Positions 4,451-27,380 of a DNA stretch of 64,000 nt are shown piece after piece. Under the pieces are notes generated by a model. The model did no database searches. It had not been told where the DNA came from and was given only the letters and a program-made list of their open reading frames with translations. The stretch covers positions 248,001-312,000 of the forward strand of contig NZ_JAASAF010000005.1 in NCBI RefSeq assembly GCF_012726195.1, written 5' to 3'. Each line of letters begins with the position of its first letter. Position 1 is the first letter of the stretch. The position numbers and the translations under genes are program-made. Source of the DNA: Rhodococcus sp. HNM0563 (lineage in GTDB: Bacteria; Actinomycetota; Actinomycetes; Mycobacteriales; Mycobacteriaceae).

Positions 4451-4479
4451 AGTTAATCACGAACCGGCCAGCGCTACAA
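4451..4479 (-). promoter_or_regulatory. Candidate promoter of the propeller-SDR-Rieske-BVMO operon
   Basis: On the minus strand, TTGTAG (4474-4479) and TTAACT (4451-4456) are separated by 17 nt. The -35 overlaps the CAAGTATTG half of box A, just as in the gntR and transporter promoters. The -10 is imperfect. TAAACT at 4413-4418 is an alternative. The leader to the TTG start would be about 145 nt. Confidence 0.45.
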
Positions 4480-4502
4480 GTATTGTTATCCTTGTAAGGA
4501 TT
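4477..4502 (+). promoter_or_regulatory. Island regulon box A (putative GntR operator)
   Basis: CAAGTATTG (4477-4485) followed one base later by the core TATCCTTGTAAGGATT (4487-4502). The core holds ATCCTT-GT-AAGGAT, an almost perfect dyad. Copies with the same spacing occur at 5547-5572 and, reversed, at 14924-14949. It covers the -35 of the minus promoter on one side and the -35/spacer of a plus promoter on the other. Confidence 0.75.
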
Positions 4503-4511
4503 GGATAGGCT
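4483..4511 (+). promoter_or_regulatory. Candidate plus-strand promoter reading away from the propeller operon
   Basis: TTGTTA (4483-4488), a 17-nt spacer filled by the box core, then TAGGCT (4506-4511). The arrangement copies those at 5553-5582 and 14914-14943. An ATG follows 8 nt after the -10, the usual distance for a leaderless start. The downstream 150 bp carry no conventional gene. Confidence 0.55.
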
Positions 4512-4519
4512 GAGCGGAT

Positions 4520-4543
4520 ATGAAGAGAATCACGTTCTCATGA
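4520..4543 (+). CDS. Leaderless 7-codon ORF (MKRITFS)
   Basis: The ATG at 4520 lies 8 nt after the -10 TAGGCT. The ORF ends at a TGA whose bases overlap the ATG at 4540 (ATGA). It contains the inverted repeat GAGAA-N5-TTCTC. It may be a leader peptide or may simply mark the 5' end of a small RNA. There is no homology information; the support is position only. Confidence 0.3.
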   Translation: MKRITFS

Positions 4544-4641
4544 GAATGCGCCCGCAGGGCGGGGTGTGCAAGGGCTGGTGTGCAGCAGAACGGCCGGGCT
4601 CGGTTGTGGGACCGAGCCCGGCCGCTGTTGGTGAGTCGTAG
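4540..4641 (+). CDS. 33-codon ORF overlapping the leader ORF, candidate small protein
   Basis: The frame starts MRMRPQGGVCKGWCAAERPG and stops at TAG 4639-4641. It overlaps the 7-codon ORF by ATGA, the coupling used throughout this genome, and has a CxxxC pair (CKGWC). The hairpin 4591-4624, which also ends the opposing gntR transcript, lies inside its second half. Full translation would therefore need read-through, and a small RNA of about 105 nt is an alternative. The high GC content makes chance ORFs common, so confidence is low. Confidence 0.22.
   Translation: MRMRPQGGVCKGWCAAERPGSVVGPSPAAVGES
4591..4624. terminator. Strong hairpin, terminator of gntR and of the opposing short transcript
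   Basis: A perfect 14-bp stem CGGCCGGGCTCGGT / ACCGAGCCCGGCCG with loop TGTGGG, 41 bp after the gntR stop on the minus strand. No long T-run follows on either strand, as is usual in actinobacterial hairpin terminators. Confidence 0.75.
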
Positions 4642-4664
4642 TCGGGTGTGGGACGCGCCGGAAG

Positions 4665-5480
4665 TCAGCTACGTGGGCGTTGGCGTGTGGGGAACGTGTT
4701 GCGTGTCATCGCGGCCGACGCATTGACGATGGTGTCGCCGAAGCGGTCGAGGACGAGCGCCTGGGTTGCTGCGAGGTGAGAACGCGCGAGTCGTTCGGCT
4801 TCGGCGACGCGCCCGTCGGCGATTTCCTTGACGATGCGGCGGTGTGCGTGGACGGCGTCTTCGGCCTTGCCTTCGGACGGGTACTCGCCGCGGCGGGTGA
4901 GGGCCTCTGCCCACGCCTCTTCCTGTGCAGACCACAGGGCGACATAGCTGCGCACCGCGTAGCGAATCGTGGCGTTCGGAGTGAACGAGACGATCAGATC
5001 GTGGAATTCCCGGGCGGCCTGCGTGAATGCGACTCCGTCGCCGACGAGTTCGGCCGAGGTGTCGATGGATGTGTTGAGGGCGGGCACGACGACCTCGAGG
5101 CGGTCCGGGCGTTTCGCGCATTCGGTGACGCACATCGGCTCGAGTAGTTGTAGACCGGCGGCGAGATCCTCGAGTGTGACCCTGCCGGCTTGCAGTGAGA
5201 GTCCGAGGTGGTACGCGGCGGAGAATTCGTCGGGGCGATGCACATCGGCGCCGCCGACGTTGCCGCGGCGTACAGTGACCAGACCTTCGGTTTCCAGAAT
5301 GCGCAGGGCTTCTCGCACCGAGGGGTAGCTGACGCCGAAGTCCTTGACCAGTTGGTCTTGGGTAGGCAATCGGTAGTCGTCATCGGAAAGTATGTGGTCG
5401 CGCAATTCGTCGGCAACGGTTTCGGCGATACGTCGCTGTGGCACTCGGCCACGCCGCGGGGTCGTCAAGAAACTCGCCAT
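4665..5480 (-). CDS. GntR-family transcriptional regulator, FadR/FCD subfamily
   Basis: 271 residues. The winged helix-turn-helix spans about residues 15-85 (KDFGVSYPSVREALRILETEG, then the wing VTVRRGNVGG). An all-helical FCD effector domain follows (AAREFHDLIVSF, HAHRRIVKEIADG). Such regulators usually bind a carboxylate or acyl-CoA and release a dyad operator. The ATG at 5480 follows the promoter TTGGTA-18-TAGACT (5495-5524). A CAAGTATTG half-site covers that -35, so autorepression is likely. The gene lies between the two oxidative operons, and matching boxes occur in front of all the island operons. It is therefore the best candidate for the regulon repressor. Confidence 0.9.
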   Translation of the reverse strand: MASFLTTPRRGRVPQRRIAETVADELRDHILSDDDYRLPTQDQLVKDFGVSYPSVREALRILETEGLVTVRRGNVGGADVHRPDEFSAAYHLGLSLQAGRVTLEDLAAGLQLLEPMCVTECAKRPDRLEVVVPALNTSIDTSAELVGDGVAFTQAAREFHDLIVSFTPNATIRYAVRSYVALWSAQEEAWAEALTRRGEYPSEGKAEDAVHAHRRIVKEIADGRVAEAERLARSHLAATQALVLDRFGDTIVNASAAMTRNTFPTRQRPRS

Positions 5481-5494
5481 TCACGCATGGACGC

Positions 5495-5524
5495 AGTCTA
5501 GCGACAGGCGGTCTTTACTACCAA
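5495..5524 (-). promoter_or_regulatory. gntR promoter
   Basis: On the minus strand, TTGGTA (5519-5524), an 18-nt spacer and TAGACT (5495-5500). The start codon is 14 nt after the -10. The -35 shares bases with the half-site CAAGTATTG (5522-5530). Confidence 0.6.
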
Positions 5525-5572
5525 GTATTGCGAGGTTTCAAAATGGCAAGCATTGCTATCCTTGTTATGATT
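5522..5572 (+). promoter_or_regulatory. Island regulon box B with an extra half-site
   Basis: CAAGTATTG at 5522-5530, then the complete box CAAGCATTG (5547-5555) plus core TATCCTTGTTATGATT (5557-5572). The first half-site overlaps the gntR -35, and the core fills the spacer of the plus promoter 5553-5582. Binding would block both divergent promoters. Confidence 0.75.
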
Positions 5573-5582
5573 GACGTAATGT
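5553..5582 (+). promoter_or_regulatory. Promoter of the acyl-CoA dehydrogenase operon
   Basis: TTGCTA (5553-5558), 18-nt spacer, TAATGT (5577-5582). The ATG at 5589 is 6 nt further on, so the mRNA is probably leaderless; no ribosome site precedes this ATG. Confidence 0.6.
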
Positions 5583-5588
5583 CCGGGC

Positions 5589-6761
5589 ATGGACTTCACG
5601 ATGGGTGGTGCCGCACCGGAACTCCGTAGCGAGTTGCGCCGGCTGGTGCATGAGCACGTTCCCCCACATTTCCTCGGAGCATTCACCGACGACCCGAGTG
5701 ATCTCGAAGCGGCGCAGGCATTCTGCCGCCTCCTCGCCGACAGCGGATTGCTGTGTATGACGTGGCCCGAGGAGTTCGGTGGACGTGGTGCATCGATCTG
5801 GGAACAGACAGTGGTGCGAGAGGAGATGTGGGCGCACCATGAGCCCCGCGGCGCGCAGTACATGGGCGTCAATTGGGTGGGTCCCACGATCATGCGTCAC
5901 GGAACCGCGGAACAGCAGGACACCCACCTTCCGCCTATCGCGCGTGGCGAAGTGATCTGGTGTCAAGGATTCAGCGAACCCGAAGCCGGCTCCGACCTCG
6001 CGTCGTTGCGTACCGCCGCGCGCCGGGACGGCGACGGCTGGCTCATCTCCGGGCAGAAGATCTGGACGTCCTACGCCACGATGGCGCAATGGTGTTTCCT
6101 GTTGGCCCGCACCTCCACCAACGGACGGAAGCAGCAGGGACTCACCGTCTTTCTCGTCCCGATGTCCGACCCGGCCATCGAAGTCCGCCCGATCCGGGCG
6201 ATGCTGGGCCCGCACCATCTCAACGAAGTCTTCTTCAACGACCTCCGCGTCACCGATGCCGATGTACTCGGCACGGTCGACGAGGGATGGAAGGTCGTGC
6301 AGGAAGTACTCGCGTACGAGCGCGTGGGTATTGCCCGCTACGCCCGCTGCGAGCGCCTGTTGCAGGCCGCACCGTCGGTCCTCGGTGCGCGATGGGACGA
6401 TCTGCCGGGCGAGCTGAAGGCGCGCTGGACCCGGATGCTCACGCACTGCCGTCGCGCACGGTTGCTGGCGTACCGGGTGGTGTCGATGCAGAGCGGCGGC
6501 GCTGTGCAGCCCGGCGACGCTGCGGCATACCGGATTGCGGTGACGACTCTCGATCAGGACAGCGCGGAGGTCCTCACCGAGATCGCTGCGTACGCCACGC
6601 CACCGAGTGGCGACCCCGACGAATTCGACGACGATACCGCCAAGTGGTTCCGCCGCGCGGTCGAAGATCACTGGCGCTATTCGCAGGCAGCCACAGTGGC
6701 CTCCGGCAGCATCGAGATGCAGCGGATCCTCCTGGCCCGAGCCATCCTGGCGGCAGCATGA
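5589..6761 (+). CDS. Acyl-CoA dehydrogenase, large subunit of pair 1
   Basis: 390 residues. WCQGFSEPEAGSDLASL (124-140) is the FAD and substrate loop of acyl-CoA dehydrogenases, and GQKIWTS (155-161) is the usual flavin-proximal strand. The C-terminal segment ASGSIEMQR replaces the normal GTSEIQR. The enzyme would introduce a 2,3 double bond into an acyl-CoA and pass electrons to ETF. It overlaps the next, shorter dehydrogenase by ATGA. Such large/small pairs form alpha2beta2 enzymes in actinobacterial steroid side-chain degradation (ChsE-type), so the two probably act as one complex on a bulky acyl-CoA. The start has no ribosome site and is presumably leaderless. Confidence 0.85.
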   Translation: MDFTMGGAAPELRSELRRLVHEHVPPHFLGAFTDDPSDLEAAQAFCRLLADSGLLCMTWPEEFGGRGASIWEQTVVREEMWAHHEPRGAQYMGVNWVGPTIMRHGTAEQQDTHLPPIARGEVIWCQGFSEPEAGSDLASLRTAARRDGDGWLISGQKIWTSYATMAQWCFLLARTSTNGRKQQGLTVFLVPMSDPAIEVRPIRAMLGPHHLNEVFFNDLRVTDADVLGTVDEGWKVVQEVLAYERVGIARYARCERLLQAAPSVLGARWDDLPGELKARWTRMLTHCRRARLLAYRVVSMQSGGAVQPGDAAAYRIAVTTLDQDSAEVLTEIAAYATPPSGDPDEFDDDTAKWFRRAVEDHWRYSQAATVASGSIEMQRILLARAILAAA

Positions 6762-7711
6762 ACACTGAACTGAGCAAGGAAGCGACCGAGTACGGCCGTG
6801 AAGCGCTTCGTGCGCTGGAAGCGGCAGGGGGCGACGATCTCGCCCAGTTGATCGAAAGCGATCCCGATCACCGCGGGAACATCATCGAGCCGACGCTCGG
6901 TGAACTCGGTGCCTGGGATCTCGATCCCCGAGGAGACGCAGACGAACTCGAAGCGGCCGCCGCGCTGTGTCGCAGCGTGGGCTTCGGGGCGGTGCCCTAC
7001 CCTGTGGCGGAGCGGCTCTCACGACCGGCCGACCTCGACGTCGACGGACTGGTCGTCGTGGACGACGACGCTCCGAAGGCGCCCATCGCGTGCCTCGATC
7101 TGCGGTGGGCTGCGGTGAGTGTCGACGGTCGGCGCAGCCTTGTGGATGCCCGCCCGCCGAGTACTCCGCCGCGGATGTCGGCGTTCACTTCTCAGCTCGA
7201 CCTCCGGCCGATCGACGACGACGGTGCGAAGGATCTCGCCCTCGCGCTGACGCTGCCGTGCTGGACCCTGCTCGGAATGCTCGATCGAGCAATGGATCTG
7301 ACCCGCTCGCACGTGCTCCTCCGTGAACAGTTCGGAGCGCCCCTGGCGAAACTGCAGGGAGTCCAATTCCAACTCACGGAGGCGGAAGTGGAACGTACGG
7401 GACTGGACGTGCTCGCCAAGTACACGCTGTGGAGCATCCAGGCAGGCAATGATGAGGCCGTCGACGACGCCCTGGCATTCCGCTTGGCGGCCGTCGAAGC
7501 GGCACAGATCGTGTTCCGGGTCGCGCACCAACTGCACGGGGCCAGCGGATTCTGCGACGAGACCACCGTGTCCTGGATCTCCCGGTACAGCATTCCGCTG
7601 CGACGAATGCCGTGGGGACCGTCCGGAACCGTCGACGCGCTGACCAAGCGGATCGACCGGCGCGGACTCACGGGCCTGTTCTCCGAAGCTCCCGAGAAGG
7701 CGGTGCTGTGA
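6758..7711 (+). CDS. Acyl-CoA dehydrogenase, small subunit of pair 1
   Basis: 317 residues, shorter than a normal 380-400-residue dehydrogenase. The N-terminal half is divergent, with few recognisable flavin motifs. The C-terminal helical domain is clear: LREQFGAPLAKLQGVQFQ, then QLHGASGFCDET (about 258-269), where the canonical LHGGxGYTxE is altered. The acidic residue of that motif is the usual catalytic base in heteromeric acyl-CoA dehydrogenases. ATGA overlap with the large subunit and GTGA overlap with the crotonase indicate a translationally coupled operon. Most likely it forms a heterotetramer with its neighbour. Confidence 0.8.
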   Translation: MNTELSKEATEYGREALRALEAAGGDDLAQLIESDPDHRGNIIEPTLGELGAWDLDPRGDADELEAAAALCRSVGFGAVPYPVAERLSRPADLDVDGLVVVDDDAPKAPIACLDLRWAAVSVDGRRSLVDARPPSTPPRMSAFTSQLDLRPIDDDGAKDLALALTLPCWTLLGMLDRAMDLTRSHVLLREQFGAPLAKLQGVQFQLTEAEVERTGLDVLAKYTLWSIQAGNDEAVDDALAFRLAAVEAAQIVFRVAHQLHGASGFCDETTVSWISRYSIPLRRMPWGPSGTVDALTKRIDRRGLTGLFSEAPEKAVL

Positions 7712-8556
7712 AATACGAACTCCCGGACGTACTCACCGTCGAATGCGAGGGTCCCATCCGGATCGTCACGATCAACCGTCCCGCCGATCTCAACGCCGTC
7801 GACAAGGACCTGCACTGGGCCCTCGCGCACGTGTGGCGGCAGCTCGCCGGCGACACCGACGCTGCCGTGGTGATCCTGACCGGGGCAGGGCGCGCGTTCA
7901 GCGCCGGAGGTGACCTCGACTGGATCACCTCCTTCCTCGACGATCCGGTCGCGCGCGACGAGAGTGTCCGGGAAGGCGCCGAGATCATCGACGAGATGCT
8001 CCGCTTCCCGCTACCTGTGATCGCAGCGGTCAACGGACCCGCGGTAGGTCTCGGCTGTAGCCTCGCGGTGCTCTCCGATGTGGTCCTCATGTCGGAGAGG
8101 GCACACCTCGCAGACCCCCACGTCGCGGTGGGACTCGTTGCGGGCGACGGGGGTGCGGCCTTCTGGCCGCTGCTCACCCCGATTCTCCGCTCGCGGGAAT
8201 ACCTCTACACCGGCGACAGGATACCGGCGAGGACGGCGGTCGAACTCGGCCTGGCGTCGCGCGTCACCGCGCCCGACGACCTGTTACCCGAGGCGCGGCG
8301 CCTCGCTGAGCGCCTCGCCGCGCAACCCGCACAGGCATTGCGCAGTACCAAACGTGTGGTCAATATGTATCTGTCCCAAGCGCTCGCCGGTCCGATGCAG
8401 GCCGGTTTCGCGGCGGAGATAGCAACCATGCAGTCCGCAGAGCATCGGGACCGATTGCTCGCTCTCCGGGACAATGCGGTCAACCGGGAGAATGCAGCGA
8501 ACCGGGAGAATGCGGCGAGGAAATCTATGCCGAAGGAGAAGGAAGAAGCGCGATGA
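7708..8556 (+). CDS. Crotonase-superfamily protein lacking both hydratase glutamates
   Basis: 282 residues from a GTG overlapping the preceding stop. The oxyanion-hole segments FSAGGDLD (64-71) and NGPAVGLG (109-116) identify the enoyl-CoA hydratase/isomerase fold. Aligned by eye to rat crotonase, the two catalytic glutamates are replaced: GGGCE becomes GLGCS (Ser118) and QPE becomes DPH (His138). Simple water addition is therefore unlikely; a hydrolase, lyase or ring-opening role is possible. The last 30 residues carry a repeated NRENAA segment from an 18-bp tandem repeat and are probably disordered. It lies between the two dehydrogenase pairs, with 4-bp overlaps on both sides. Confidence 0.82.
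   Translation: MKYELPDVLTVECEGPIRIVTINRPADLNAVDKDLHWALAHVWRQLAGDTDAAVVILTGAGRAFSAGGDLDWITSFLDDPVARDESVREGAEIIDEMLRFPLPVIAAVNGPAVGLGCSLAVLSDVVLMSERAHLADPHVAVGLVAGDGGAAFWPLLTPILRSREYLYTGDRIPARTAVELGLASRVTAPDDLLPEARRLAERLAAQPAQALRSTKRVVNMYLSQALAGPMQAGFAAEIATMQSAEHRDRLLALRDNAVNRENAANRENAARKSMPKEKEEAR
8473..8520 (+). repeat. 18-bp tandem repeat, 2.7 copies, inside the crotonase C-terminus
   Basis: Units AATGCGGTCAACCGGGAG and AATGCAGCGAACCGGGAG, then a partial AATGCGGCGAGG. The unit is a multiple of three and encodes the repeated NRENAA tail, so copy-number changes would keep the frame. Confidence 0.8.
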
Positions 8557-9764
8557 GTGCCGGGACGACAAGCGTCGGAGCGCCGACACTCGAGGGCTTC
8601 CGGACCTCGGTCCGCGGCTGGTGCCGCGACCATATCCCCGCAGACTGGCGCCGGGCCCAAACCGATGTCTCCGACGACGAATTCGTCCGATTTCAGAAAG
8701 CCTGGTTCCAGGAACTACGCGGAGCGGGCTTTGCGGTGCCACACTGGCCGGAGGAATGGGGAGGCGGCATGTCCGTCGCGGAACAGGTCGTGCTGTACCA
8801 GGAACTCGCAGCCCACGACGCACCCCGGCTGGTTCTGCCCTTCGTCTCGATCCACCACGCCGCGTCGACGCTGCTCGCCGCCGGCACCGACGAACAACGG
8901 AACCGTCATCTCCCTGCGATCCTCGACGGCGAGATCTGGTGCCAGGGCTTCTCCGAGCCCGGCGCGGGATCCGACATGGCGGCACTCGCGACCAGCGCCC
9001 GGAAGGACGGCGACGTCTACATCGTCAACGGCCAGAAACTGTGGGCCAGCGGTGCGTTGTACGCCGACCGGTGCCTGCTGCTGGCCCGCACCGATCCCGA
9101 CGCCCCGAAACGCAAGGGCATCTCGTACTTCCTGATGGACATGCGTACCCCCGGAGTCGAGGTACGTCCGATCAAGCAAGCGACCGGCGAATCGCACTTC
9201 TGCGAGATATTCCTCAACGATGTCGCCATTCCTGCGACGAACCTTGTCGGACCCGAGAACGAAGGATGGCGGGTCGCGCAGGAAACACTCGGAGCCGAGC
9301 GCGGCATGACCATGCTCGAACTCACCGAGCGACTGAGTCACGGCGGGTTCCGCTTGCTCGTCGACCTGTGCACCCGGCCGGGCCCCGACGGGACGGCCCC
9401 ACTCGACGACACGCGCGTCGCAGACCGGCTCGCCACACTCGAGATCGAACTCACGGGGCTGCGCGCATTGGTGTCGGATTTCGTCGCCGCCGACCGGCCA
9501 GGGCCGGCCGACGCGTCGATCGTCAAGCTCTACTACAGCGAGCTGCTCCAGCGCATCACCGATTTCGGCACAGAGATCGCGGGTCTCGCAGCGCACACCG
9601 ATCTACGGAAACCTCAGTCCAGCGGGTGGGAATCAGGGGCATGGATGCTCGATTTCATCGGCTCGTGGGAGTGGACGATCCCGGGCGGAACCAGCGAAAT
9701 CCAACGCACCATCATCGGGGAACGTGGCCTCGGTCTGCCCCGCGAGCCGACAGGACAGCGATGA
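8553..9764 (+). CDS. Acyl-CoA dehydrogenase, large subunit of pair 2
   Basis: 403 residues, ATG overlapping the crotonase stop. WCQGFSEPGAGSD (129-141), the GQKLWAS strand and the C-terminal IPGGTSEIQRTIIGERGLGL are all standard for acyl-CoA dehydrogenases that bind FAD. It lies directly before a second dehydrogenase polypeptide with an ATGA overlap, repeating the arrangement of pair 1. The enzyme should oxidise an acyl-CoA at the alpha-beta bond in the pathway served by this island. Two pairs suggest two successive rounds or two differently shaped intermediates. Confidence 0.87.
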   Translation: MSAGTTSVGAPTLEGFRTSVRGWCRDHIPADWRRAQTDVSDDEFVRFQKAWFQELRGAGFAVPHWPEEWGGGMSVAEQVVLYQELAAHDAPRLVLPFVSIHHAASTLLAAGTDEQRNRHLPAILDGEIWCQGFSEPGAGSDMAALATSARKDGDVYIVNGQKLWASGALYADRCLLLARTDPDAPKRKGISYFLMDMRTPGVEVRPIKQATGESHFCEIFLNDVAIPATNLVGPENEGWRVAQETLGAERGMTMLELTERLSHGGFRLLVDLCTRPGPDGTAPLDDTRVADRLATLEIELTGLRALVSDFVAADRPGPADASIVKLYYSELLQRITDFGTEIAGLAAHTDLRKPQSSGWESGAWMLDFIGSWEWTIPGGTSEIQRTIIGERGLGLPREPTGQR

Positions 9765-10849
9765 CCGACTCACTCCCGGACCTGTCCGAATTCCACGACG
9801 AACTACGGTCCGTCGCGCGAGACCTTTTGTCAAGATCAGGCCACGACGCGCCGGTCGACTGGGAGTCGATCAGCACATCCGGATGGCTCGGCCTCGAAGT
9901 TCCGGGCGAATTCGACGGTGCCGACGCCACTTTCGCCGAGGTTGCCGTGATCCTCCGGGAGGTCGGCCGCGCAGCCGCACTCGGACCCTATCCGTCCGTC
10001 GCGTCGCTCGCGGTGGCAGCACTCGAGCGCGTCGAACCTGGCGATGATCGTGACCGCCTCCTCCGCGACACCGTCTCGGGAAACGCTGTTCCGGCATTCG
10101 TCCTCGGCGGGGAATCTGCAGGCCGGACCCAATTCCAAGTGGAGGCCGTGCCGCAGGGAGCGATCCTCCGGGGCGCGGCGGCGTTCGTGCTCGACGCTCC
10201 CGACGCAGACCGGCTACTCGTACCGGCGCAAGAACCCGATGGCACGATCGTCGTCGTCGATCTCGATCCGGGGGCGCTCGGGCTCGTGGTGACCGGACAA
10301 CCGGTCGTGGACGCGACACGCAGTTTCGGGACCGTAGTCGCCGAGGGCGTGACGATCCCGCCGGAATCGGTGTGGCGATTCCACGATGACCCCCGGGAGA
10401 CACTGCGACAACTGCACGACCGTGCCCTTGTGGCCGTGGCCTGTGACAGTCTCGGTTCGAGCGAGGCGATGCTCGACGCTACCGTCTCCTACGCCGGGAT
10501 GCGAGAGCAGTTCGGACGCAAGATCGGCTCGTTCCAGGCGGTCAAGCACGCCTGCGCCGACATGCTCGTCCAGGTGACGGTGGCCCGAACACTGGTCGAC
10601 GCCGCAGTGCGCAGCCTGGTGTCCGGAGACCCGGAGACGACGACTGCGGCCTCGATGGCCAAGGCCTACAGCTGTGCGGCGGCCGTCGAGGTTGCCGGCA
10701 AGGCCATGCAGTTGCACGGTGGAATGGGCTACACGTGGGAGAGCGGCGTCCACGTGCATCTCAAGCGTGCGACGTTGAACCGCTCGTTGTTCGGTTCACC
10801 TGCGCTGCACCGGGCGTACCTCGCGCAGCGCTATCGACCTGCCTCCTGA
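9761..10849 (+). CDS. Acyl-CoA dehydrogenase, small subunit of pair 2
   Basis: 362 residues. The N-terminal half is divergent. The C-terminal domain has MREQFGRKIGSFQAVKH and LHGGMGYTWE (318-327), whose Glu is at the catalytic-base position of this class. It is the last gene of the plus-strand operon, which ends at the hairpin 10865-10911. Together with the preceding gene it probably forms a heteromeric flavoenzyme; it could also act as a homomeric dehydrogenase, since the base motif is intact. Confidence 0.84.
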   Translation: MTDSLPDLSEFHDELRSVARDLLSRSGHDAPVDWESISTSGWLGLEVPGEFDGADATFAEVAVILREVGRAAALGPYPSVASLAVAALERVEPGDDRDRLLRDTVSGNAVPAFVLGGESAGRTQFQVEAVPQGAILRGAAAFVLDAPDADRLLVPAQEPDGTIVVVDLDPGALGLVVTGQPVVDATRSFGTVVAEGVTIPPESVWRFHDDPRETLRQLHDRALVAVACDSLGSSEAMLDATVSYAGMREQFGRKIGSFQAVKHACADMLVQVTVARTLVDAAVRSLVSGDPETTTAASMAKAYSCAAAVEVAGKAMQLHGGMGYTWESGVHVHLKRATLNRSLFGSPALHRAYLAQRYRPAS

Positions 10850-10925: not shown

Positions 10926-12632
10926 TTATTTCTGGAGACGCTTGATGGCGAGTTCCTTGATGTCGCTCGACTTGATCTTCGCGGTGCCGGTGAGGCTGAT
11001 TTCCTCGTTGTCGAAGAACAACACCTCTCGCGGAACCTTGTAGCTGGCGAGGCGCTCGCGCAGGTATCCACGAATCCCGTCGACATCGAGGTCGGCTCCT
11101 GCGTGCGCCACTATGCAGGAGACGACGACCTCCCCGAGCGTGTCGTGGGGGACACCGACCGTGCGTGCCACTTTGACTCCGGGGCACGCGATGAGCGCTT
11201 CGTCGACCTCGAGGGGAGAGACGTTCGCGCCGCCGGTCTTGATGATGTCGGTGAGGCGTCCTTCCCAATAGAGTCGCCCGGTGTCGTCGACGTAGCCGCC
11301 GTCGCCGGTGTGGAAGAACCCGTGGTCGTCGACCGTCTCACTGAGGGGAGTGCCGACGTACCCGAGCATCAACGTCGGTCCCTTGACACAGATCTCGCCT
11401 CGCTCTCCTCGGGGAACGACAGCGCCGGTCAAGGCATCGACGATCCGGATCGTCACCCCGGGCAACGGCTTTCCGCTGCTACCCGCGATCACATCGGACG
11501 GGGTATTGGCGGGGTAGCACGTACTGATCGTGAAGGTTTCGGTATTGCCGTACGCGTGACCCGGCTCGTACCATTCGTCGGTCACCGTGGGGTGACGTGC
11601 TACCGGTGTGTTGTAGTCGACGTAGCGGAGGCTACTCAGATCCGCCTTGTCCCAGTTCGGGGCACCGACGAGCTGAGCCCACTGGTGCGGCCAGGCGAAG
11701 GGGAAGTTCACCCGTTCTTTCTCGATGAGCTCGAGGGCTTCGCTCGGATCGAACGTCGGTTGCAGGATGAGCGACCCACCACTGGCGAGGGTGTTGCCGA
11801 GGGCCATCGCGAAATTCCCCGACCAGAAGTAGCCGTTCGCTGTCCAGCACCGAATGTCCATCTCGGGCGAGAATCCGTACATGCGCCGGAATCGCCACAT
11901 CTGAATGGACACTCCGCGGTGCGCGCTCAGAATGCCCTTCGGTTTGCTGGTCGAACCGGAGGAGAAGAACAGCACGGCCACATCGCTGGGCTGTACTGAC
12001 GCGGCGGACGCTTCGACCAGTTCGCGGGGCTGTGATTCACCGTGGGCGAGGAACTCGTCCCACGCTTCGATCGACTCGCCTTCGGCCTTCTTGCCGACCA
12101 TGGCGACGTGACGGAGGAAGGGGAACTTCGTCGAGTGGATCTCGTCGCCGCCGGCTGTGCCGATCCGCGGTTCCAGGTCGGTCAGGGCTGCGGCGAAGTC
12201 CGTCTTCAGGACGTTGCGCTCGAACAGCAGGATCTCCACCCCCGAGGTCTCGAGCATGTAGTCGAGCTCCGACGGGGTCGAGAACGTGCTGAGTGTGACT
12301 GCGACACCCCCTGCAAGGGAGGCGCCGAAGACCGCCGTGATCCACTCGGGGCGGTTCGTCATCAGCACGCCCACGCGTCCGTCCTTTGCGAGGCCGAGTC
12401 CCCGCAGCGCCCGCGCGACGTCGATAGCCCGCTCCCACAGTTCGGAGTAGGTCCATCGGGTGACGCCGTCGGCGCCGTGCATCACAAGCGCTTCGCGATC
12501 GCCGTACAGTTCGGTCACCTCGCGGAGGAAACCGGGCAGGGTGAGGGCTCCGAGCCCCGGTTCGTCGCTCAGTGGTGGGCCCGACACGATCGAAACAGAG
12601 TCCACCGCTTCTGCCTTCGTCTCAGTACTCAT
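10926..12632 (-). CDS. AMP-forming acyl-CoA ligase
   Basis: 568 residues. The adenylate P-loop is SSGSTSKPKG (224-233). The hinge region is FHTGDGGYVDDTGRLYWEGR followed by IIKTGGANVSP. The C-terminal acyl-transfer lysine is in TGTAKIKS (about residue 552). It activates a carboxylic acid to its CoA thioester with ATP. It is the last gene of a three-gene minus-strand operon with a MaoC-type hydratase and an AcuI-like reductase under box C. A second ligase of the island lies at 23318-24829. The substrate is unknown, but co-regulation with the oxygenase operon suggests the acid formed after lactone opening or a ring-cleavage product. Confidence 0.88.
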   Translation of the reverse strand: MSTETKAEAVDSVSIVSGPPLSDEPGLGALTLPGFLREVTELYGDREALVMHGADGVTRWTYSELWERAIDVARALRGLGLAKDGRVGVLMTNRPEWITAVFGASLAGGVAVTLSTFSTPSELDYMLETSGVEILLFERNVLKTDFAAALTDLEPRIGTAGGDEIHSTKFPFLRHVAMVGKKAEGESIEAWDEFLAHGESQPRELVEASAASVQPSDVAVLFFSSGSTSKPKGILSAHRGVSIQMWRFRRMYGFSPEMDIRCWTANGYFWSGNFAMALGNTLASGGSLILQPTFDPSEALELIEKERVNFPFAWPHQWAQLVGAPNWDKADLSSLRYVDYNTPVARHPTVTDEWYEPGHAYGNTETFTISTCYPANTPSDVIAGSSGKPLPGVTIRIVDALTGAVVPRGERGEICVKGPTLMLGYVGTPLSETVDDHGFFHTGDGGYVDDTGRLYWEGRLTDIIKTGGANVSPLEVDEALIACPGVKVARTVGVPHDTLGEVVVSCIVAHAGADLDVDGIRGYLRERLASYKVPREVLFFDNEEISLTGTAKIKSSDIKELAIKRLQK

Positions 12633-12662
12633 GGATGACTTCCTGTTGTCTGCGCGGTGCCG

Positions 12663-13859: not shown

Positions 13860-13870
13860 TGGTGCTCCTG

Positions 13871-16686: not shown

Positions 16687-16779
16687 CCCCGACCGCCGAT
16701 CAGCGAAGTGCTTGCTGCGGGTAGTGGCCTGGATGGTGCCGGTACCCGCAGCAGGCCCAGAACTACAACAGGAGTGCAA

Positions 16780-18381: not shown

Positions 18382-18430
18382 CGGGGGACGCCGAGTAGCG
18401 GGCGACGAGAGAGTGCGAGGTGATCGAAAC

Positions 18431-19396
18431 GTGGTCGGACCTTCGGTGCGGCGAAGCGCGGTGTCCGTCGGGAACTTCCTCCTTCTGGTCTGGATGGTCA
18501 GCGCGGCGGTGTTCCTGCTTCTGGAGTTGATTCCCGGCGACCCCGTCGACGCACTGGTGCCCCCGGGTGCGTCCGACGCGATGCGCGAGCTCGCCCGCGA
18601 GAGCTACGGACTGTCGGATCCGCTCGTGCAGCGGTACTTCTCGTGGATCGGAGGAGTTCTCCAGGGCGACTTCGGGCGCTCGTTCACCACGCAGACACCG
18701 GTGCTTACGTCGATCGCCGAACGAGCACCGGTGTCTCTGGAACTCGCGATCCTGTCGATGGTGGTGGCCCTCGCGATCTCGCTGCCCGTCGGTGTCTGGT
18801 CGGCGTACCGGCCCGGCGGCCGCGTCGACAGGATTGCGACAGCGCTGACGTCGGCGACACTGGCCATACCGTCGTTCGCGCTGGGAGTCCTGCTCGTCTT
18901 CCTGTTCGGCGTACTGCTCGGTTGGCTTCCGACCCTCGGGTGGACACCGTTCTCCGAAGACCCGATCGAACATCTCCGGCACCTCGTACTGCCGGTGATG
19001 ACCTTGGCCGCCGGGGAATGCGTGCTGTTCACCCGTCTGCTCAAAGGCGACATGATGGCGACCCTCCAGCAGGACCACGTCCTTTCGGCGCGAGCACGCG
19101 GACTGCCTACGTGGCGCATTCTGACGGGGCATTCGCTGCGGCAATCCTCGTTCTCCCTGATCACCGTGTCCGGGGTGGTGATCGGCCGGCTCATCGGCGG
19201 AACGGTCATCGTCGAACTGATCTTCTCGATACCGGGCATGGGCACGCTGGTCGTCAATTCGATCCTGTCGCGCGACTTCATCGTCGTGCAGGCGGTGGTT
19301 CTGCTCAGCGCGTTGCTCTACCTGCTGATCAATACGGCCGTCGACGTCGCTTACCCGTGGCTGGACCCGCGCGTCCGGAAAGTGAGTGGATCGTGA
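18431..19396 (+). CDS. ABC importer permease 1 (DppB type)
   Basis: 321 residues, multiple membrane helices. An opening helix (NFLLLVWMVSAAVFLLLELIPGDP) and the DppB-type periplasmic loop GDFGRSFTTQTPV are followed by the ATPase-contact segment (ARARGLPTWRILTGHSLRQS). GTG 18431 is used; GTG 18413 in frame is an alternative. It overlaps permease 2 by GTGA. Together with permease 2 it forms the channel of the importer in the cytoplasmic membrane. Confidence 0.86.
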   Translation: MVGPSVRRSAVSVGNFLLLVWMVSAAVFLLLELIPGDPVDALVPPGASDAMRELARESYGLSDPLVQRYFSWIGGVLQGDFGRSFTTQTPVLTSIAERAPVSLELAILSMVVALAISLPVGVWSAYRPGGRVDRIATALTSATLAIPSFALGVLLVFLFGVLLGWLPTLGWTPFSEDPIEHLRHLVLPVMTLAAGECVLFTRLLKGDMMATLQQDHVLSARARGLPTWRILTGHSLRQSSFSLITVSGVVIGRLIGGTVIVELIFSIPGMGTLVVNSILSRDFIVVQAVVLLSALLYLLINTAVDVAYPWLDPRVRKVSGS

Positions 19397-20307
19397 CAGA
19401 TCTCGTCGGGAAGGCCACCGATATCGGAGCACCCGCGCAGGGGCCTGCGATCGGTACGCCTACCAGCGCGGCGCCGGCCGCTGCGCCACCGCGTCGCCGG
19501 CGACGCGAGTACGGTGCGTTGCTCGGTGCTGTCTGGATCGGTCTCGTCGTCCTCGCGGCCCTGACTGCACAGTGGCTACCGCTGCCCGACCCCAGTGAGA
19601 TCACCGACGAGTTCAGTGCGACCCCGGGATGGGGAGCGCACCCGCTCGGGACCGACTCATTGGGCCGCGACACACTGTCGCGATGCATCTACGGCGCGCG
19701 GGTGTCGATGACGGTGGCCATCGTCGGTACGACCGTGGCGATGATCATCGGCGTTACGGCGGGGATGGTTGCCGGGTACGTCGGAGGCTTTCTGGACCGG
19801 GCGATCTCACTGGTCATCAATTTCCTGCTCTCGTTCCCCGCACTGATCTTCCTCATCGCACTGGTGGCCGCACTCGGTCCGAGTCTGTCGACACTGGTGC
19901 TCGGCCTCGCCCTGCTCGGTATCCCGAACTTCGCGCGTGTCGCGCGAGCCAACACGATCGCCTTCTCGGAACGTGAATTTGTCACGGCGGCGAAGGCGCT
20001 CGGAGCGGGAACATGGCGGGTGCTCACTCGGGAACTGCTCGCCAACGTGATGCTGCCCGTCATGTCGCTCGCGCTCGTGGTGATGGCGACCCTCGTCGTG
20101 GCGGAAGGCAGTTTGAGCTTTCTCGGACTGGGTGTTCCCCCACCCACTCCGAGCTGGGGCGGGATGCTCGCGGCCGGACGCGAATCCCTGAGGGAATACC
20201 CCCATCTCGTACTCATTCCCATGCTGTTCTTCTTTCTCACCGTGTACTCGTTCAACAAACTCGGGGACTGGGTGCGTGGCCGGGTCGGGAAGGAGTCGTC
20301 CGTATGA
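19393..20307 (+). CDS. ABC importer permease 2 (DppC type)
   Basis: 304 residues. A basic, proline/alanine-rich cytoplasmic N-terminus (PPRRRRREYG) precedes the first helix. HPLGTDSLGRDTLSRCIYGAR is the DppC signature, and the EAA-type loop EFVTAAKALGAG contacts the ATPase. It overlaps both neighbours by 4 bp, so the components are made in step. Confidence 0.88.
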   Translation: MTDLVGKATDIGAPAQGPAIGTPTSAAPAAAPPRRRRREYGALLGAVWIGLVVLAALTAQWLPLPDPSEITDEFSATPGWGAHPLGTDSLGRDTLSRCIYGARVSMTVAIVGTTVAMIIGVTAGMVAGYVGGFLDRAISLVINFLLSFPALIFLIALVAALGPSLSTLVLGLALLGIPNFARVARANTIAFSEREFVTAAKALGAGTWRVLTRELLANVMLPVMSLALVVMATLVVAEGSLSFLGLGVPPPTPSWGGMLAAGRESLREYPHLVLIPMLFFFLTVYSFNKLGDWVRGRVGKESSV

Positions 20308-21422
20308 GTGGTGTCGAAAGTCTCGAGAAGGACACCGACGGGGTGGAGGCTACGCGGCGGGCGTCACTGCTGGATGTGCGTGATCTGCGGGTGTGGTTCG
20401 ATACGCCACGCGGCTCGGTCCGTGCGGTCGACGGCGTCGATCTGACAGTCGATCCCGGACGGACACTCGGCATCGTCGGCGAATCCGGCTCGGGAAAGTC
20501 CGTGCTGTCCCGCGCGGTCATGAAGATTCTCCCGCCCAGCGCTCAGGTGCATCCGGCCGGTGAGATCCGCTTCAACGGTGTGGATCTGGCGACCGTGTCG
20601 CCGAAGAAGAACAAGCACCTGTGGGGAGTGGACCTGTCGATGGTGTTCCAGGACCCGATGACCTCCCTCACTCCGGTCATGACGATCGGGCGGCAACTCA
20701 CCGAAACTCTCCGGTTCCACCTCGGCCTCGATCGGGCGCAGGCGAAGGCCGAAGCGATCCGATTGCTGACGCTGGTGGGGATACCCGAACCCGAAAGCCG
20801 GTTCGCTCAGTACCCGCACCACCTGTCCGGTGGCATGCGGCAGCGCGTCACGATCGCGCTGGCGATCGCGTGTTCCCCGAAGCTGCTCATCGCCGATGAA
20901 CCGACCACGGCTCTCGATGTCACGGTGCAGCAGCAGATTCTCGATCTTCTCCAGGACCTGCAACAGAAATCGAAGATGGGCATGATCCTGATCACCCACG
21001 ATCTCGGTGTCGTGGCGGGCCGTGCCGACTCGATCGCCGTCATGTATGCGGGCAAGGTCGTGGAAGTAGGGCCGACGCGTGAACTGTTCGCGCACATGCG
21101 GCATCCGTACACCCGGGCTCTGATCGATGCGATTCCGAGGCTCACCCACCCGAGCCACGCCTACCTACCCTCGATTCCGGGGCGTCCGCCCACGATCATC
21201 GATCCTCCGCCGGGATGCAGTTTTGCGCCGCGATGCTTCTCCGCTCAGTCTCGATGCCTGATCGAAACACCGGTGCTCGCTACCTCACCCGATTCGCGCG
21301 AGCATTCCGCGGCGTGTTTCTTTCCGCTCGGGACCCCGGCGGGGGAGAGCGCCCGTGCAGCAAACATCGCCGCAGGTGTCACCGCGGCGGGCACACTCGT
21401 CGACTCGAAGGACGTGAACTGA
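20304..21422 (+). CDS. ABC importer ATPase 1 (DppD type)
   Basis: 372 residues. Walker A GESGSGKS, signature LSGGMRQR, Walker B LLIADEPTTALD and the H-loop ITHDLGVVAG are all intact. The C-terminal extension has the cysteine pattern PPGCSFAPRCFSAQSRC with a further Cys, usual for oligopeptide-type ATPases; in some members of the family these cysteines hold an iron-sulfur cluster. ATGA overlap with permease 2. It powers import together with ATPase 2. Confidence 0.9.
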   Translation: MSGVESLEKDTDGVEATRRASLLDVRDLRVWFDTPRGSVRAVDGVDLTVDPGRTLGIVGESGSGKSVLSRAVMKILPPSAQVHPAGEIRFNGVDLATVSPKKNKHLWGVDLSMVFQDPMTSLTPVMTIGRQLTETLRFHLGLDRAQAKAEAIRLLTLVGIPEPESRFAQYPHHLSGGMRQRVTIALAIACSPKLLIADEPTTALDVTVQQQILDLLQDLQQKSKMGMILITHDLGVVAGRADSIAVMYAGKVVEVGPTRELFAHMRHPYTRALIDAIPRLTHPSHAYLPSIPGRPPTIIDPPPGCSFAPRCFSAQSRCLIETPVLATSPDSREHSAACFFPLGTPAGESARAANIAAGVTAAGTLVDSKDVN

Positions 21423-21438
21423 TGGCGGGCAGTAACTG

Positions 21439-22434
21439 ATGGCAGGCAGCGGAGTGGCGCACCTGCGAACCGATGACGACGTGGTGCTGAGCGTCCGGAA
21501 CCTCACGGTGGAATACGCGGGGCGGGGGAGTGAGCGGGTCTTCGCGGTGTCTGATGTGAGCCTGGACGCCAAGCGGGGGGAAACGATCGGTCTGGTCGGC
21601 GAATCCGGATGCGGAAAATCGAGTGTCGCCAAGGCGATCATGCAGCTACCTGCGCCCACGTCGGGATCTGTGGTCGTCGACGGATCGGACATCGCCGGGC
21701 TCCGTCCATCCGCACTGCGCGGACACCGGCGGAAACTGCAGATGATCTTTCAGGACCCGATCTCCTCACTGAACCCGCTGCGCAAGGTCAAGGACATCAT
21801 CGCGGAGGGGCTGAGGATCCAGGGAGACGTGAGCAAGGCCGACGTCGTCAAGCGGACCAGAGACATGATCGAACGGGTCGGGCTCGACCCCGAAACCGCC
21901 CCGGATCGCCGACCTCACGAGTTTTCCGGTGGCCAGTGCCAGCGGATCTCGATCGCCCGAGCGATGGTCCTGGACCCGGAGATCGTGATCTGCGACGAAC
22001 CTGTGTCGGCTCTCGATGTCTCGGTACAGGCGCAGATCATCAACCTCCTCGCCGAGATGAAACAGCGTTACCGACTCACCATGGTGTTCATTGCGCACGA
22101 TCTGGCGGTGGTGAAGAACGTGAGTGACCGCGTGGTCGTCATGTACCTCGGAAAGGTCTGTGAGGTCGCCGGTTCCGACGACCTGTTCACCGCACCTGTG
22201 CACCCCTACACTCGTGCGCTGATCGACTCGATCCCCGATCCGGATCCCGACGCGCAGTTGCCGTCGGCCGTCCTGAGCGGCGACCTACCGTCGCCGTCGA
22301 ATCCACCGAGCGGATGCCGGTTCCGCACCAGGTGCCCGGCTGCGCAGGAGCGGTGTGCGGCCGAGGAACCGGAGATCCGTGAGCTGCGACCGGGACATTT
22401 CGCTGCATGCCACTTCCCCGTCGGAGTGGAGTGA
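21439..22434 (+). CDS. ABC importer ATPase 2 (DppF type)
   Basis: 331 residues. Walker A GESGCGKS, signature FSGGQCQR, Walker B IVICDEPVSALD, H-loop IAHDLAVV, and the C-terminal GCRFRTRCPAAQERC cysteine motif. The start is ATG 21439 (TGATG). Just upstream lies a near-copy of the same beginning (ATG GCG GGC AGT AAC TGA at 21422-21439), a micro-duplication that leaves a 5-codon ORF between the two ATPases. It is the last gene of the importer operon and meets the opposing SDR gene after 15 bp. Confidence 0.9.
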   Translation: MAGSGVAHLRTDDDVVLSVRNLTVEYAGRGSERVFAVSDVSLDAKRGETIGLVGESGCGKSSVAKAIMQLPAPTSGSVVVDGSDIAGLRPSALRGHRRKLQMIFQDPISSLNPLRKVKDIIAEGLRIQGDVSKADVVKRTRDMIERVGLDPETAPDRRPHEFSGGQCQRISIARAMVLDPEIVICDEPVSALDVSVQAQIINLLAEMKQRYRLTMVFIAHDLAVVKNVSDRVVVMYLGKVCEVAGSDDLFTAPVHPYTRALIDSIPDPDPDAQLPSAVLSGDLPSPSNPPSGCRFRTRCPAAQERCAAEEPEIRELRPGHFAACHFPVGVE

Positions 22435-22449: not shown

Positions 22450-23226
22450 CTATCGCGCTGTCCAGCCACCGTCGACAACGATGGTCTGGCCCGTGACATA
22501 GCTTCCCGAGTCGCCGGCCAGCCATACGACGGCGCCTACGATGTCGTCGGGGGTGCCCTCTTTCGGGAGCGGGGTGTTGTGGCGCAGGTACTCGGTCGCG
22601 CGTTCGCTCTCGTAGAGGGGGCCTGTGATCTCGCTGCGGAAGAAGCCCGGCGCTACCGTGTTGACGCGGATCGAATGCCGTGCCCACTGCACGGCCAGTT
22701 CGGAAGTGAGGCCGGACAGTCCGAGTTTGCTTGCTGCATAGGAAGCCTGGGGGATTCCGGGGACGCCCACGCGGCCGCTGATCGACGAGATGTTGATGAT
22801 CGCGCCTCGCCCGACGGTGCGCATGTGCGGGAATACGTCCTGGGCGAGTCGGAACGGGGCGAGCAGGTTGAGGTCCATGGTGCGCCGGATCGCGGCGAGC
22901 GGCTCGGCCTCGGCTCGCTCTTCGGTGAACATGCTGCCCGCACCGTTGACGAGGATCTCCGGTGGGCCGAGCAGTTCGGCCACGGCCGGTACGACGGTGT
23001 CGACCTGATCGAGATCCGACAGGTCGCACGCGACCGCGACACCCCCGATCCGCTCGGCGAGCTCCTCGAGCCGATCCTTCCGCCGGGCCACCACGGCAAC
23101 CCTCGCGCCGAAGGACGCGAGCGTTTCGGCCACCGTCGCGCCGAGACCCGACGATGCGCCGGTCACGATCGCAACCCGGCCCTCGAGACCGAACATTCGT
23201 GCGGCGGTGTCGGGGTTCAGTGCCAC
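22450..23226 (-). CDS. Short-chain dehydrogenase/reductase 2 (SDR)
   Basis: 258 residues from GTG 23226, preceded by GAGGAG; a longer frame to a TTG at 23253 would start inside an inverted repeat and is less likely. Cofactor motif TGASSGLGATV, the NNAG equivalent NGAGS, catalytic SISGRVGVPG and YAASKLG, C-terminal VDGGW. It is a classical SDR, probably oxidising a 3-hydroxyacyl-CoA or an alcohol of the pathway. It follows the ligase gene on the same strand, separated by 91 bp that contain the inverted repeat 23247-23269. Confidence 0.87.
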   Translation of the reverse strand: MALNPDTAARMFGLEGRVAIVTGASSGLGATVAETLASFGARVAVVARRKDRLEELAERIGGVAVACDLSDLDQVDTVVPAVAELLGPPEILVNGAGSMFTEERAEAEPLAAIRRTMDLNLLAPFRLAQDVFPHMRTVGRGAIINISSISGRVGVPGIPQASYAASKLGLSGLTSELAVQWARHSIRVNTVAPGFFRSEITGPLYESERATEYLRHNTPLPKEGTPDDIVGAVVWLAGDSGSYVTGQTIVVDGGWTAR

Positions 23227-23246
23227 AGGGGTCTCCTCGGATTCGA

Positions 23247-23269
23247 ACTGCAAGACGAATTCTTGCAGT
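23247..23269. promoter_or_regulatory. Perfect 9-5-9 inverted repeat between ligase and SDR genes
   Basis: ACTGCAAGA-CGAAT-TCTTGCAGT. It ends 20 bp before the SDR start on the minus strand. As RNA it would be a stable hairpin in the intergenic mRNA; as DNA it could be an operator. It does not match the island box. Confidence 0.5.
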
Positions 23270-23317
23270 GTTGGGCGGCGGTGCAGGCCGATCGTCGGAT
23301 CGCGTCGGAACGACCGG

Positions 23318-24829
23318 TCAGGACACGCCGGAACGTCGGTGCGCGTCGATCAACTCGGGAAGCCCGGCGCGCTGGATCTTGCCCATCGCGTTGACGGGTA
23401 GCGCATCGACCCGCGTCCAGACCTCCGGAACCTTGTACGGTGAGAGTTCCCGACTGCACAGTTCGGTGAGTGCCTCGAAATCGGGTTCCTCGACCGGGCT
23501 TTCGATCACCGCGGCGACCCGCTGTCCGAGTCGATCGTCGGGGATCGGATACACGGCGACCTTGGTGACGTCCGGGTGGGTGCCGATGACCCGCTCGACC
23601 TCGAGCGGGTACACGTTGGCGCTGCCCCGGATGATGACGAGCTTCTTGCGGTCCAGCACCGTCAGCCGGCCGTGCTCGTCGACCGTTCCGATATCGCCGG
23701 TGGCAACGGGGCCCGGTTCCGGTGGGCTGATGACGCCGTTCTCCAGGTATCCGAGCATGGGTGTCCACACGCGCGCCCACGGACCGTTGTTCGCCGCGGT
23801 CAGTTGCAGTTCACCCAGCTCACCCGGAGCGAGGCGCTGTCCCGCGTCATCGTAGGCTGCCACGTCGAGATGCGGTAGGACAGTTCCGCTCGAGCGCGGC
23901 TGCCCCTCGACACCCACGGGATCGATCGACACGACGGTAGGTGCCTCGGTCAGGCCGTAGGTGACGCGGGGTTCGAGATGATGTGCGTCGGCGAATGCAC
24001 GGCGCAATTCATCCGGCGTGTCGCTGCCGCCGCTCCAAACCTCTTGCAGGGAGCCGAGGTCGAGGTCGGGGCGCGCGGCGAGATCATAGATCTGAGCGGG
24101 GGCTCCGTTCCACACGGTCACCTCACGTGTGGCGATCCATTCGGCGACGCCCTCGAGATCTCGCCGGTTCATGACGACGGCGCATCCGCCGGCCTGCGCG
24201 GTGAGCAGAGTGGACAGCACCATGAGGTTGAGGATCGTGAAGGGGAAGCTGTCGCCCTTACGCAGATCCGGGCCGTACCCACGGGTGGCGACGAGAACCG
24301 CGCCCGGAAGCAGGAGATTGCGCTGGCTGTGGACCACTGCCTTGGGCTTTCCGGACGTGCCGCTCGTGAAGGCGATTCCGGCGGGTGCATCGATGTCGAG
24401 GTCGAGTGCGGGTGTCTCGCCCCCGCGTGCGAGCAGTTCGGCCCACCTGTCCGGATCTATTCGGCCGGGAGTGCTGAGCTTGCAGTGTTCACCGGCGAGG
24501 ACAACTGTCGGTGTGCTGAGGTCGTAGAGGTACTGCTGTTCGGCGGCGGGTAGGGCTTCGCCGATGCCGGCCCACACGGCTCCGATTCGTTGGGTGCCGT
24601 GGAAGGCTGCGACGATGTCCAGATCGTTGGGCAGGCACGCCGCGACCCGGTCTCCGGGGCGCACCCCGAGTGACCACAGGGCGCCGGCGGCCCGACGGGC
24701 CTGGTCGTCGAGGTCCGAGTACGACCAGGTTCCTGAGGCGGCGTCGACGGCGGGCGCATTCGGGCGCTCCGCGAGCGCGGCGTCGAGGACTCTGTCGATC
24801 GTTCCCGGGATGGCGGTGTTTTCGTCCAC
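23318..24829 (-). CDS. AMP-forming acyl-CoA ligase 2
   Basis: 503 residues from GTG 24829. P-loop TSGTSGKPKA (155-164); acceptor region YGLTEAPT; hinge TGDIGTVDEHGRLTVLDRKK; C-terminal lysine in NAMGKIQR (about 484). It is shorter and different in sequence from the ligase at 10926. It is the first gene of a two-gene minus-strand unit with SDR 2, directly below box D (24846-24861), only 16 bp from its start. It probably activates a second acid intermediate or an alternative substrate of the pathway. The ribosome site is poor, so the exact start is uncertain. Confidence 0.84.
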   Translation of the reverse strand: MDENTAIPGTIDRVLDAALAERPNAPAVDAASGTWSYSDLDDQARRAAGALWSLGVRPGDRVAACLPNDLDIVAAFHGTQRIGAVWAGIGEALPAAEQQYLYDLSTPTVVLAGEHCKLSTPGRIDPDRWAELLARGGETPALDLDIDAPAGIAFTSGTSGKPKAVVHSQRNLLLPGAVLVATRGYGPDLRKGDSFPFTILNLMVLSTLLTAQAGGCAVVMNRRDLEGVAEWIATREVTVWNGAPAQIYDLAARPDLDLGSLQEVWSGGSDTPDELRRAFADAHHLEPRVTYGLTEAPTVVSIDPVGVEGQPRSSGTVLPHLDVAAYDDAGQRLAPGELGELQLTAANNGPWARVWTPMLGYLENGVISPPEPGPVATGDIGTVDEHGRLTVLDRKKLVIIRGSANVYPLEVERVIGTHPDVTKVAVYPIPDDRLGQRVAAVIESPVEEPDFEALTELCSRELSPYKVPEVWTRVDALPVNAMGKIQRAGLPELIDAHRRSGVS

Positions 24830-24845
24830 CCACCAGTCATACCAC

Positions 24846-24874
24846 TATCCTTGTAAAGATTCATCTGATAGTTT
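24846..24874 (+). promoter_or_regulatory. Island regulon box D (core only) with promoter of the CoA-transferase operon
   Basis: The core TATCCTTGTAAAGATT (24846-24861) matches boxes A-C at 13-15 of 16 positions, but the CAAGTATTG half is missing. TAGTTT (24869-24874) is a plausible -10 for the plus operon, giving a 55-nt leader to ATG 24936. The box also abuts the ligase start on the other strand, so it could control both. Confidence 0.65.
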
Positions 24875-27379: not shown

Positions 27380-27380
27380 G

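Follow-up and report, generated by a model that had tools for sequence, protein, structure and literature searches.

Does a single GntR-type regulator control a whole catabolic gene island through one shared operator? The question is raised by a 64,000-nucleotide stretch of Rhodococcus sp. HNM0563 (contig NZ_JAASAF010000005.1, positions 248,001 to 312,000; hereafter the window, numbered from its first letter). A first-pass annotation had described a repeated box at four sites before the operons of a 28-kb island, and had proposed that the GntR protein encoded at 4665-5480 binds them all. Judging from the pattern of boxes and genes, we consider it highly probable that this protein is an autorepressor acting at these boxes, and that they mark a real, conserved, local catabolic regulon. 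The four sites and an additional half-site were present on direct reading, with their end coordinates slightly corrected; scores are from the position weight matrix (PWM) introduced below.

4477-4503, + strand: box 1, CAAGTATTG TTATCCTTG TAAGGATTG; three half-sites, in the gap between gntR and the propeller operon (PROP); 47.0 bits
5547-5573, + strand: box 2, CAAGCATTG CTATCCTTG TTATGATTG; three half-sites, in the divergent region of gntR and the acyl-CoA dehydrogenase gene ACAD1; 42.6 bits
5522-5530, + strand: extra half-site CAAGTATTG, on the proposed gntR -35
14923-14949, - strand: box 3, CAAGTATTG CCATCCTTG TAATGATTG; three half-sites, in the divergent region of the ADH (reductase) operon and the importer; 43.9 bits
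24845-24862, + strand: box 4, CTATCCTTG TAAAGATTC; two half-sites, without the CAAGTATTG half, in the divergent region of the ligase gene LIG2 and the CoA-transferase gene CAIB; 25.4 bits
4665-5480, - strand: gntR, FCD-type GntR regulator of 271 amino acids, with Pfam GntR and FCD matches; proposed repressor of all boxes

Half-site 1 of box 2, CAAGCATTG, differs by one base from the motif first described, which consisted of CAAGTATTG followed by a core. The claim that the window holds no further copy was borne out, as the next core match, reverse readings of the four sites aside, had 4 mismatches. Across the 5.54-Mb genome, the core was found at nine places with up to 3 mismatches: four with 0-1 (the four sites), none with 2, and five with 3. 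The core read backwards gave 3 places. The 18-mer CAAGTATTGNNATCCTTG, allowed the same mismatches, gave 12 places: sites 1-3 with 0-1 mismatch, and nine with 3, two of the nine being reverse readings of sites 2 and 3; its control gave 7. Because every core copy with at most one mismatch (four in all, and there were none with two) lies within the island, the motif is not spread across the genome, and the random scatter that had been named beforehand as an argument against the regulon was not found.

To follow the boxes in related loci, genome contigs were scanned for relatives of the GntR protein. The best 80 of the 119 relatives found were kept and the window was added, giving 81 loci; the 80 came from Rhodococcus, Nocardia, Williamsia, Gordonia, Aldersonia, Mycobacterium/Mycolicibacterium, Amycolatopsis, Actinomadura, Actinocorallia, and Pseudofrankia. 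A 27-bp PWM, seeded with eight typed sites and trained on the 81 loci, converged on 152 sites, with some in every locus, while column-permuted matrices gave 0-4 matches in 24 of 25 runs. Counting for each gene only those loci in which it (at least 55% identity) and its upstream region were visible, we found a box upstream of gntR in 80/81, ACAD1 in 65/65 (always at the same position), PROP in 37/37, ADH in 13/14, and LIG2 in 15/16 loci. By position, the 152 boxes belonged to ACAD1 (69), PROP (37), LIG2/CAIB (16), gntR only (15), ADH (13), and other places (2).

The full box consists of three contiguous 9-bp half-sites in the orientations +, -, +, that is, of two overlapping dyads centred on box positions 9.5 and 18.5. 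The half-sites read about CAAGTATTG on the + strand, a relative of CAAGTATTG on the - strand, and TAAGGATTG on the + strand, and the boxes are + - + repeats of about NAAGKATTG (PWM consensus of the 152 sites, CAAgtATTG CnATCCTTn taAGGATtG). Brought into register (1 and 3 as read, 2 reverse-complemented), the half-site matrices correlated at 0.85, 0.74, and 0.94, a mean reached by 0 of 5000 column permutations. Symmetry was strong only at centres 9.5 (0.85) and 18.5 (0.94), the next tested centre reaching 0.53. By this comparison of matrices, three contiguous half-sites described the motif better than CAAGTATTG plus a core. When a half-site was counted as present at 7 or more matches out of 9, all three were found in 37/37 PROP, 58/69 ACAD1, 12/13 ADH, 8/15 gntR-only, and 0/16 LIG2/CAIB boxes, and at most sites the third half-site matched as well as the other two. 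Half-site 1 was absent from all 16 LIG2/CAIB boxes (in the reading used) and half-site 3 from six gntR-only boxes; therefore either dyad can apparently serve alone. A counterpart of the 5522 half-site (at least 8/9 matches), 24-25 bp before the ACAD1 box, was seen in 7 of 65 loci including the window, and the flanks of the ACAD1 boxes showed little conservation outside the promoter elements.

Next, we asked whether the box and the regulator occur together. A close GntR was defined by at least 64% identity, a line drawn after seeing a gap between 64% and 51% among 301 genomes. Of the 32 genomes with a close GntR, 30 had the strict box pattern (at most 2 mismatches), as did 1 of the 269 others (Fisher p 8e-38, relatedness uncorrected); the reversed control was present in 0 of 301. 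The two genomes missed by the strict pattern, G259 and G109, carried PWM boxes of 37.5 and 36 bits, and the pattern occurred in none of the 30 genomes whose sole GntR match was at or below 51%. A pattern match in G110 (locus L140, 2 mismatches) was dismissed as chance, having neither regulon genes nearby nor a PWM match that reached 16 bits. At the loci of more distant GntR homologues, a box of at least 14 bits was found in 0 of the 10 examined, two of them scoring 12.6 and 13.5 bits. The acyl-CoA dehydrogenase (ACAD) operon was preceded by a box on a contig other than that of gntR in G022, G243, and G282, and about 77 kb (G229) and about 95 kb (G096) from gntR on the same contig. These gntR-distant regions were fetched because the box pattern matched there; what they establish is therefore that the operon is marked by boxes, and they give no frequency of boxless operons. 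Boxes far from gntR also preceded genes for a thiamine pyrophosphate (TPP) enzyme (L124) and luciferase-like monooxygenases (L129 6857, L130 6632, L137 5718). The monooxygenases are candidate extra members of the regulon; the window has none by tblastn. The proposal of one GntR regulon was thus supported by the genome-wide uniqueness of the box, its conservation before the same genes, its co-occurrence with a close GntR across the 301 genomes compared, its absence, at 14 bits or above, from the loci of 10 of 10 distant homologues, and its presence at gntR-distant ACAD operons in five genomes.

A different regulator might bind the boxes, with gntR merely one of its targets. Such a target gene would equally have a box in front of it, and the TKGT/ACMA operator usual for the family (GT and AC 2-3 nt apart) was found at 0 of the 152 sites including 10-bp flanks; the bare GT-N2-3-AC occurred in 18 boxes, versus 32 in control segments. 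We nevertheless regard this explanation as very unlikely, in that the box accompanies a close GntR in 30/32 genomes versus 1/269 others. Moreover, gntR was the only gene common to all 81 loci, though by selection, and no second regulator family appeared among the scanned island genes, where no systematic search for a co-occurring regulator was made.

The position of the boxes over promoters was then determined. Box 2 overlaps the -35 and fills the spacer of the following promoter, as had been described at first.

5553-5582, + strand: ACAD1 promoter TTGCTA-18-TAATGT, read from the sequence

The ATG at 5589, seven bases past the -10, suggests that the ACAD1 mRNA is leaderless. All 69 ACAD1 boxes were oriented with the gene; 64 of them had TANNNT at promoter spacing, versus 0.5 on average when the position was shifted, and 53 had TTG at box positions 7-9. 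TANNNT stood at the same fixed spacing in 11/12 ADH boxes and in 20/20 gene-directed PROP boxes. The other 17 PROP boxes, the window's included, were opposite to the gene, and 12 of the 17 carried a spacer-type promoter directed away from PROP. For gntR, the CAA of half-site 1 supplied a TTG, followed by TANNNT 16-19 bp on, in 51 of 84 boxes, a count made without a shifted control. The LIG2/CAIB boxes were mostly without TTG and TANNNT. Other promoters of the first-pass annotation called for correction. The one at site 1, TTGTTA-17-TAGGCT (4483-4511), exists but faces away from the propeller operon, being directed at the gntR 3' end and antisense to gntR. The gntR -35, TTGGTA, does lie on a half-site, but on the extra one at 5522-5530 instead of the main box; and for the importer and the leftward propeller promoters, the -10s that can be proposed were poor when read by eye.

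These promoter elements bear on two further explanations. If the repeated sequence were chiefly the signature of promoters that share a sigma factor, and not an operator, the -35 TTG inside the box and the TANNNT at fixed spacing (ACAD1 64/69, ADH 11/12, PROP 20/20 in one orientation) would follow. However, the information of the box resides in two dyads inside the spacer, where promoters show no conservation, PROP boxes are found facing either way, and most LIG2/CAIB boxes have neither element, which leaves this reading extremely unlikely. The second explanation, that GntR is an activator or a dual regulator at some promoters, is unlikely to a lesser degree. Since only two half-sites remain at LIG2/CAIB and no spacer-type promoter was seen there, the mode of action at that site may differ; at most promoters, by contrast, the box overlaps both -35 and spacer, where repressor sites usually lie.

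Repression of the island by GntR therefore remains our preferred reading: we infer it because the box overlaps the promoter, and we infer binding, an effector, and the number of dimers alongside. A GntR dimer, or several adjacent dimers, would occupy the boxes and repress its own gene and six neighbouring transcription units; the annotation had counted six units, and with gntR there are seven. At the ACAD1 promoter, and at the ADH promoter in most relatives, the box extends over the -35 and spacer of the rightward promoter, and the opposing -35 takes its TTG from half-site 1 (for the window's gntR, from the extra half-site 25 bp upstream); a single box could thus close two promoters. Release of the repressor would follow from the binding of a pathway compound to the FCD domain, a carboxylate or an acyl-CoA being the most likely candidate. 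In the window, LIG2/CAIB has two half-sites, PROP and ADH have three each, and gntR/ACAD1 has three plus one. Conceivably, though we think it doubtful, the operator has two registers, one being the convergent dyad of half-sites 1-2 and the other the divergent dyad of half-sites 2-3, with a dimer able to sit on either. How many half-sites a promoter has, and of which kind, would then set the tightness of control and the order in which the pathway opens, by a cooperative, NanR-like assembly of several dimers on inverted repeats.

The regulator itself carries an N-terminal winged helix-turn-helix (PF00392, 50.7 bits, cutoff 27) and a C-terminal FCD domain (PF07729, 47.9 bits, cutoff 24.3). Its best NCBIfam model was NanR (NF003011), at 65.1 bits far under the curated cutoff of 260, and its best match among solved structures was NanR of Escherichia coli, a remote one (E 7e-6). 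Among the relatives listed, the closest GntR in a named genome was that of Rhodococcus sp. SMB37 (97%). The recognition-helix region, VSYPS(I/V)RE, was invariant across 20 aligned orthologues; its counterpart in the boxless homologues was VSLVSLRE in 6 of 10. The FCD histidines His160, His213, and His235 were present in 30/30 sequences, the metal-site residues being mapped by sequence alignment to NanR only.

Several observations weigh against a single repressor acting through a conserved box. The Asp of the usual FCD metal site was Ala, Ser, or Gly in 30/30 sequences, and the protein departs from the pattern of a metal-binding FCD domain (Asp-x3-His plus two more His). A box was missing directly before gntR in L110, before ADH in L111, and before LIG2 in L102. 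Of the 81 loci, just two, the window and L044, had a box shared by the importer; one genome outside them (L141) also had an importer with a box. Second GntR copies of 63-66% identity (L144, L158) had no box directly upstream, and the boxless homologue L157 (47% identity) had a weak 13.5-bit match directly before its gntR. One of the 25 column-permuted matrices gave 65 matches at threshold 14. Finally, because the loci were picked for GntR relatives, as the best 80 of 119, and the PWM was trained there, the counts from the PWM, of conservation, and of architecture are not independent of the choice of loci.

The genes behind the boxes, assigned by Pfam and NCBIfam models unless stated otherwise, are as follows.

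1-450, - strand: Baeyer-Villiger-type flavin monooxygenase, N-terminal part; the propeller operon goes on leftward
450-1829, - strand: RHO, Rieske ring-hydroxylating oxygenase alpha subunit
1858-2697, - strand: SDR1, short-chain dehydrogenase (SDR)
2711-4432, - strand: PROP, SMP-30/NHL propeller protein (start uncertain); Pfam SGL and NHL, NCBIfam ScyD/ScyE family above cutoff
5589-10849, + strand: ACAD1, ACAD2, ECH1, ACAD3, ACAD4 (four acyl-CoA dehydrogenases, one enoyl-CoA hydratase)
10926-14854, - strand: ADH (AcuI-type acrylyl-CoA reductase), MaoC-like dehydratase, acyl-CoA ligase LIG1
15112-22434, + strand: oligopeptide/nickel-type ATP-binding cassette (ABC) importer; two binding proteins, two permeases, two ATPases
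22450-24829, - strand: LIG2, acyl-CoA ligase, and SDR2
24936-28148, + strand: CAIB, CoA-transferase III; acetyl-CoA hydrolase-type CoA-transferase; ECH2

Housekeeping genes (dxr, M50 protease, gcpE) start at 28482. ADH scored 546 bits with the AcuI-type acrylyl-CoA reductase model (cutoff 440). The island reaches beyond the left edge of the window: there, the PROP-SDR1-RHO operon goes on with genes for the Baeyer-Villiger-type monooxygenase, an SDR, a TPP enzyme, and an aldehyde dehydrogenase (L159 6469-12454). The best NCBIfam model of this monooxygenase was neopentalenolactone D synthase, at 649 bits under the cutoff of 1100. No further box was found in the 12.5-kb stretch left of the window (top PWM score 7.3). 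The Rhodococcus plasmid pUSK13_1 has the same order of PROP, SDR, RHO, flavin monooxygenase, SDR, TPP enzyme, and aldehyde dehydrogenase, and PROP is preceded there by a box of 42 bits. The pathway probably breaks down a cyclic compound, which would first be met by the Rieske oxygenase, the SDR, and the Baeyer-Villiger-type monooxygenase, followed by CoA activation and beta-oxidation. NCBIfam, Pfam, PDB, and the plasmid records pointed to a cyclic compound and yielded no named substrate, and a literature search that included abscisic acid returned nothing specific. On the Sphingobium plasmid pBSY17_1 (L145), a Rieske oxygenase 66% identical to RHO lies beside acyl-CoA dehydrogenases, CoA-transferases, and a hydratase; this locus has a TetR regulator, and no box there scored 14 bits or above: a similar enzyme set under different control.

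Further features were noted around site 1. No gene was seen on the strand downstream of its promoter. An antisense action of this promoter on gntR was considered and rejected, as only 5 of the 9 loci that have no intervening gene showed the promoter type, and a hairpin at 4591-4624 stands between the promoter and gntR. This hairpin, with a 15-bp stem, lies between box 1 and the gntR stop codon and is a likely terminator. A second three-half-site array, GAGAATCACGTTCTCATGAGAAT, occupies 4525-4547, 22 bp right of box 1. No second exact copy of it was found genome-wide, and one other place matched with 3 mismatches (reversed control 0); by eye, GAGAAT/TTCTC dyads like it stood beside the PROP box in L044, L045, L048, and L055. 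It is possibly a site for another regulator.

About 23 window genes and the continuation of the operon outside thus form one predicted regulon with a precise operator. The compound releasing the repressor is likely a substrate or intermediate and would offer a handle on the pathway, and in other actinobacteria the box also marks further pathway genes (TPP enzyme, luciferase-like monooxygenases). For the GntR field, it would represent an operator class off the subfamily consensus, with three half-sites about equally conserved. The six box strings had no match in the literature searched, the coverage of which was partial, so an earlier description is possible.

Known systems were compared through two sources, PMC8012715 and PMC4494728. 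In NanR of Escherichia coli, three dimers bind cooperatively to the three repeat units of the operator, and Asp172 is a zinc ligand (PMC8012715). Like NanR, the regulator described here is a GntR protein of the FadR subfamily with an FCD domain, and its proposed operator has three repeat units; unlike NanR, which has direct GGTATA repeats, it has inverted + - + 9-mers, and Asp172 is replaced by Ala, Ser, or Gly. The third half-site is not new in kind, since weaker extra half-sites 7-12 nt from the site centre are described for 13 FadR-subfamily groups (PMC4494728). With FadR-subfamily local regulons of the RegPrecise type, such as those of LldR, PdhR, GlcC, and HypR, the island shares a winged helix-turn-helix plus FCD-type domain, divergent promoters on one site, extra half-sites beside the main dyad, and probably autoregulation (PMC4494728). 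In contrast to those regulons, their common TKGT/ACMA boxes are absent here, and the third half-site, weaker in theirs, equals the others at most sites. According to the same source, the TKGT/ACMA operator is common but not universal in the FadR subfamily, and exceptions exist. Like BioR and other atypical members, the regulator has a motif outside the subfamily consensus (PMC4494728), although the BioR motif, TTATMKATAA, is a different sequence. Together, the island looks like a conventional local control system with an unusual operator.

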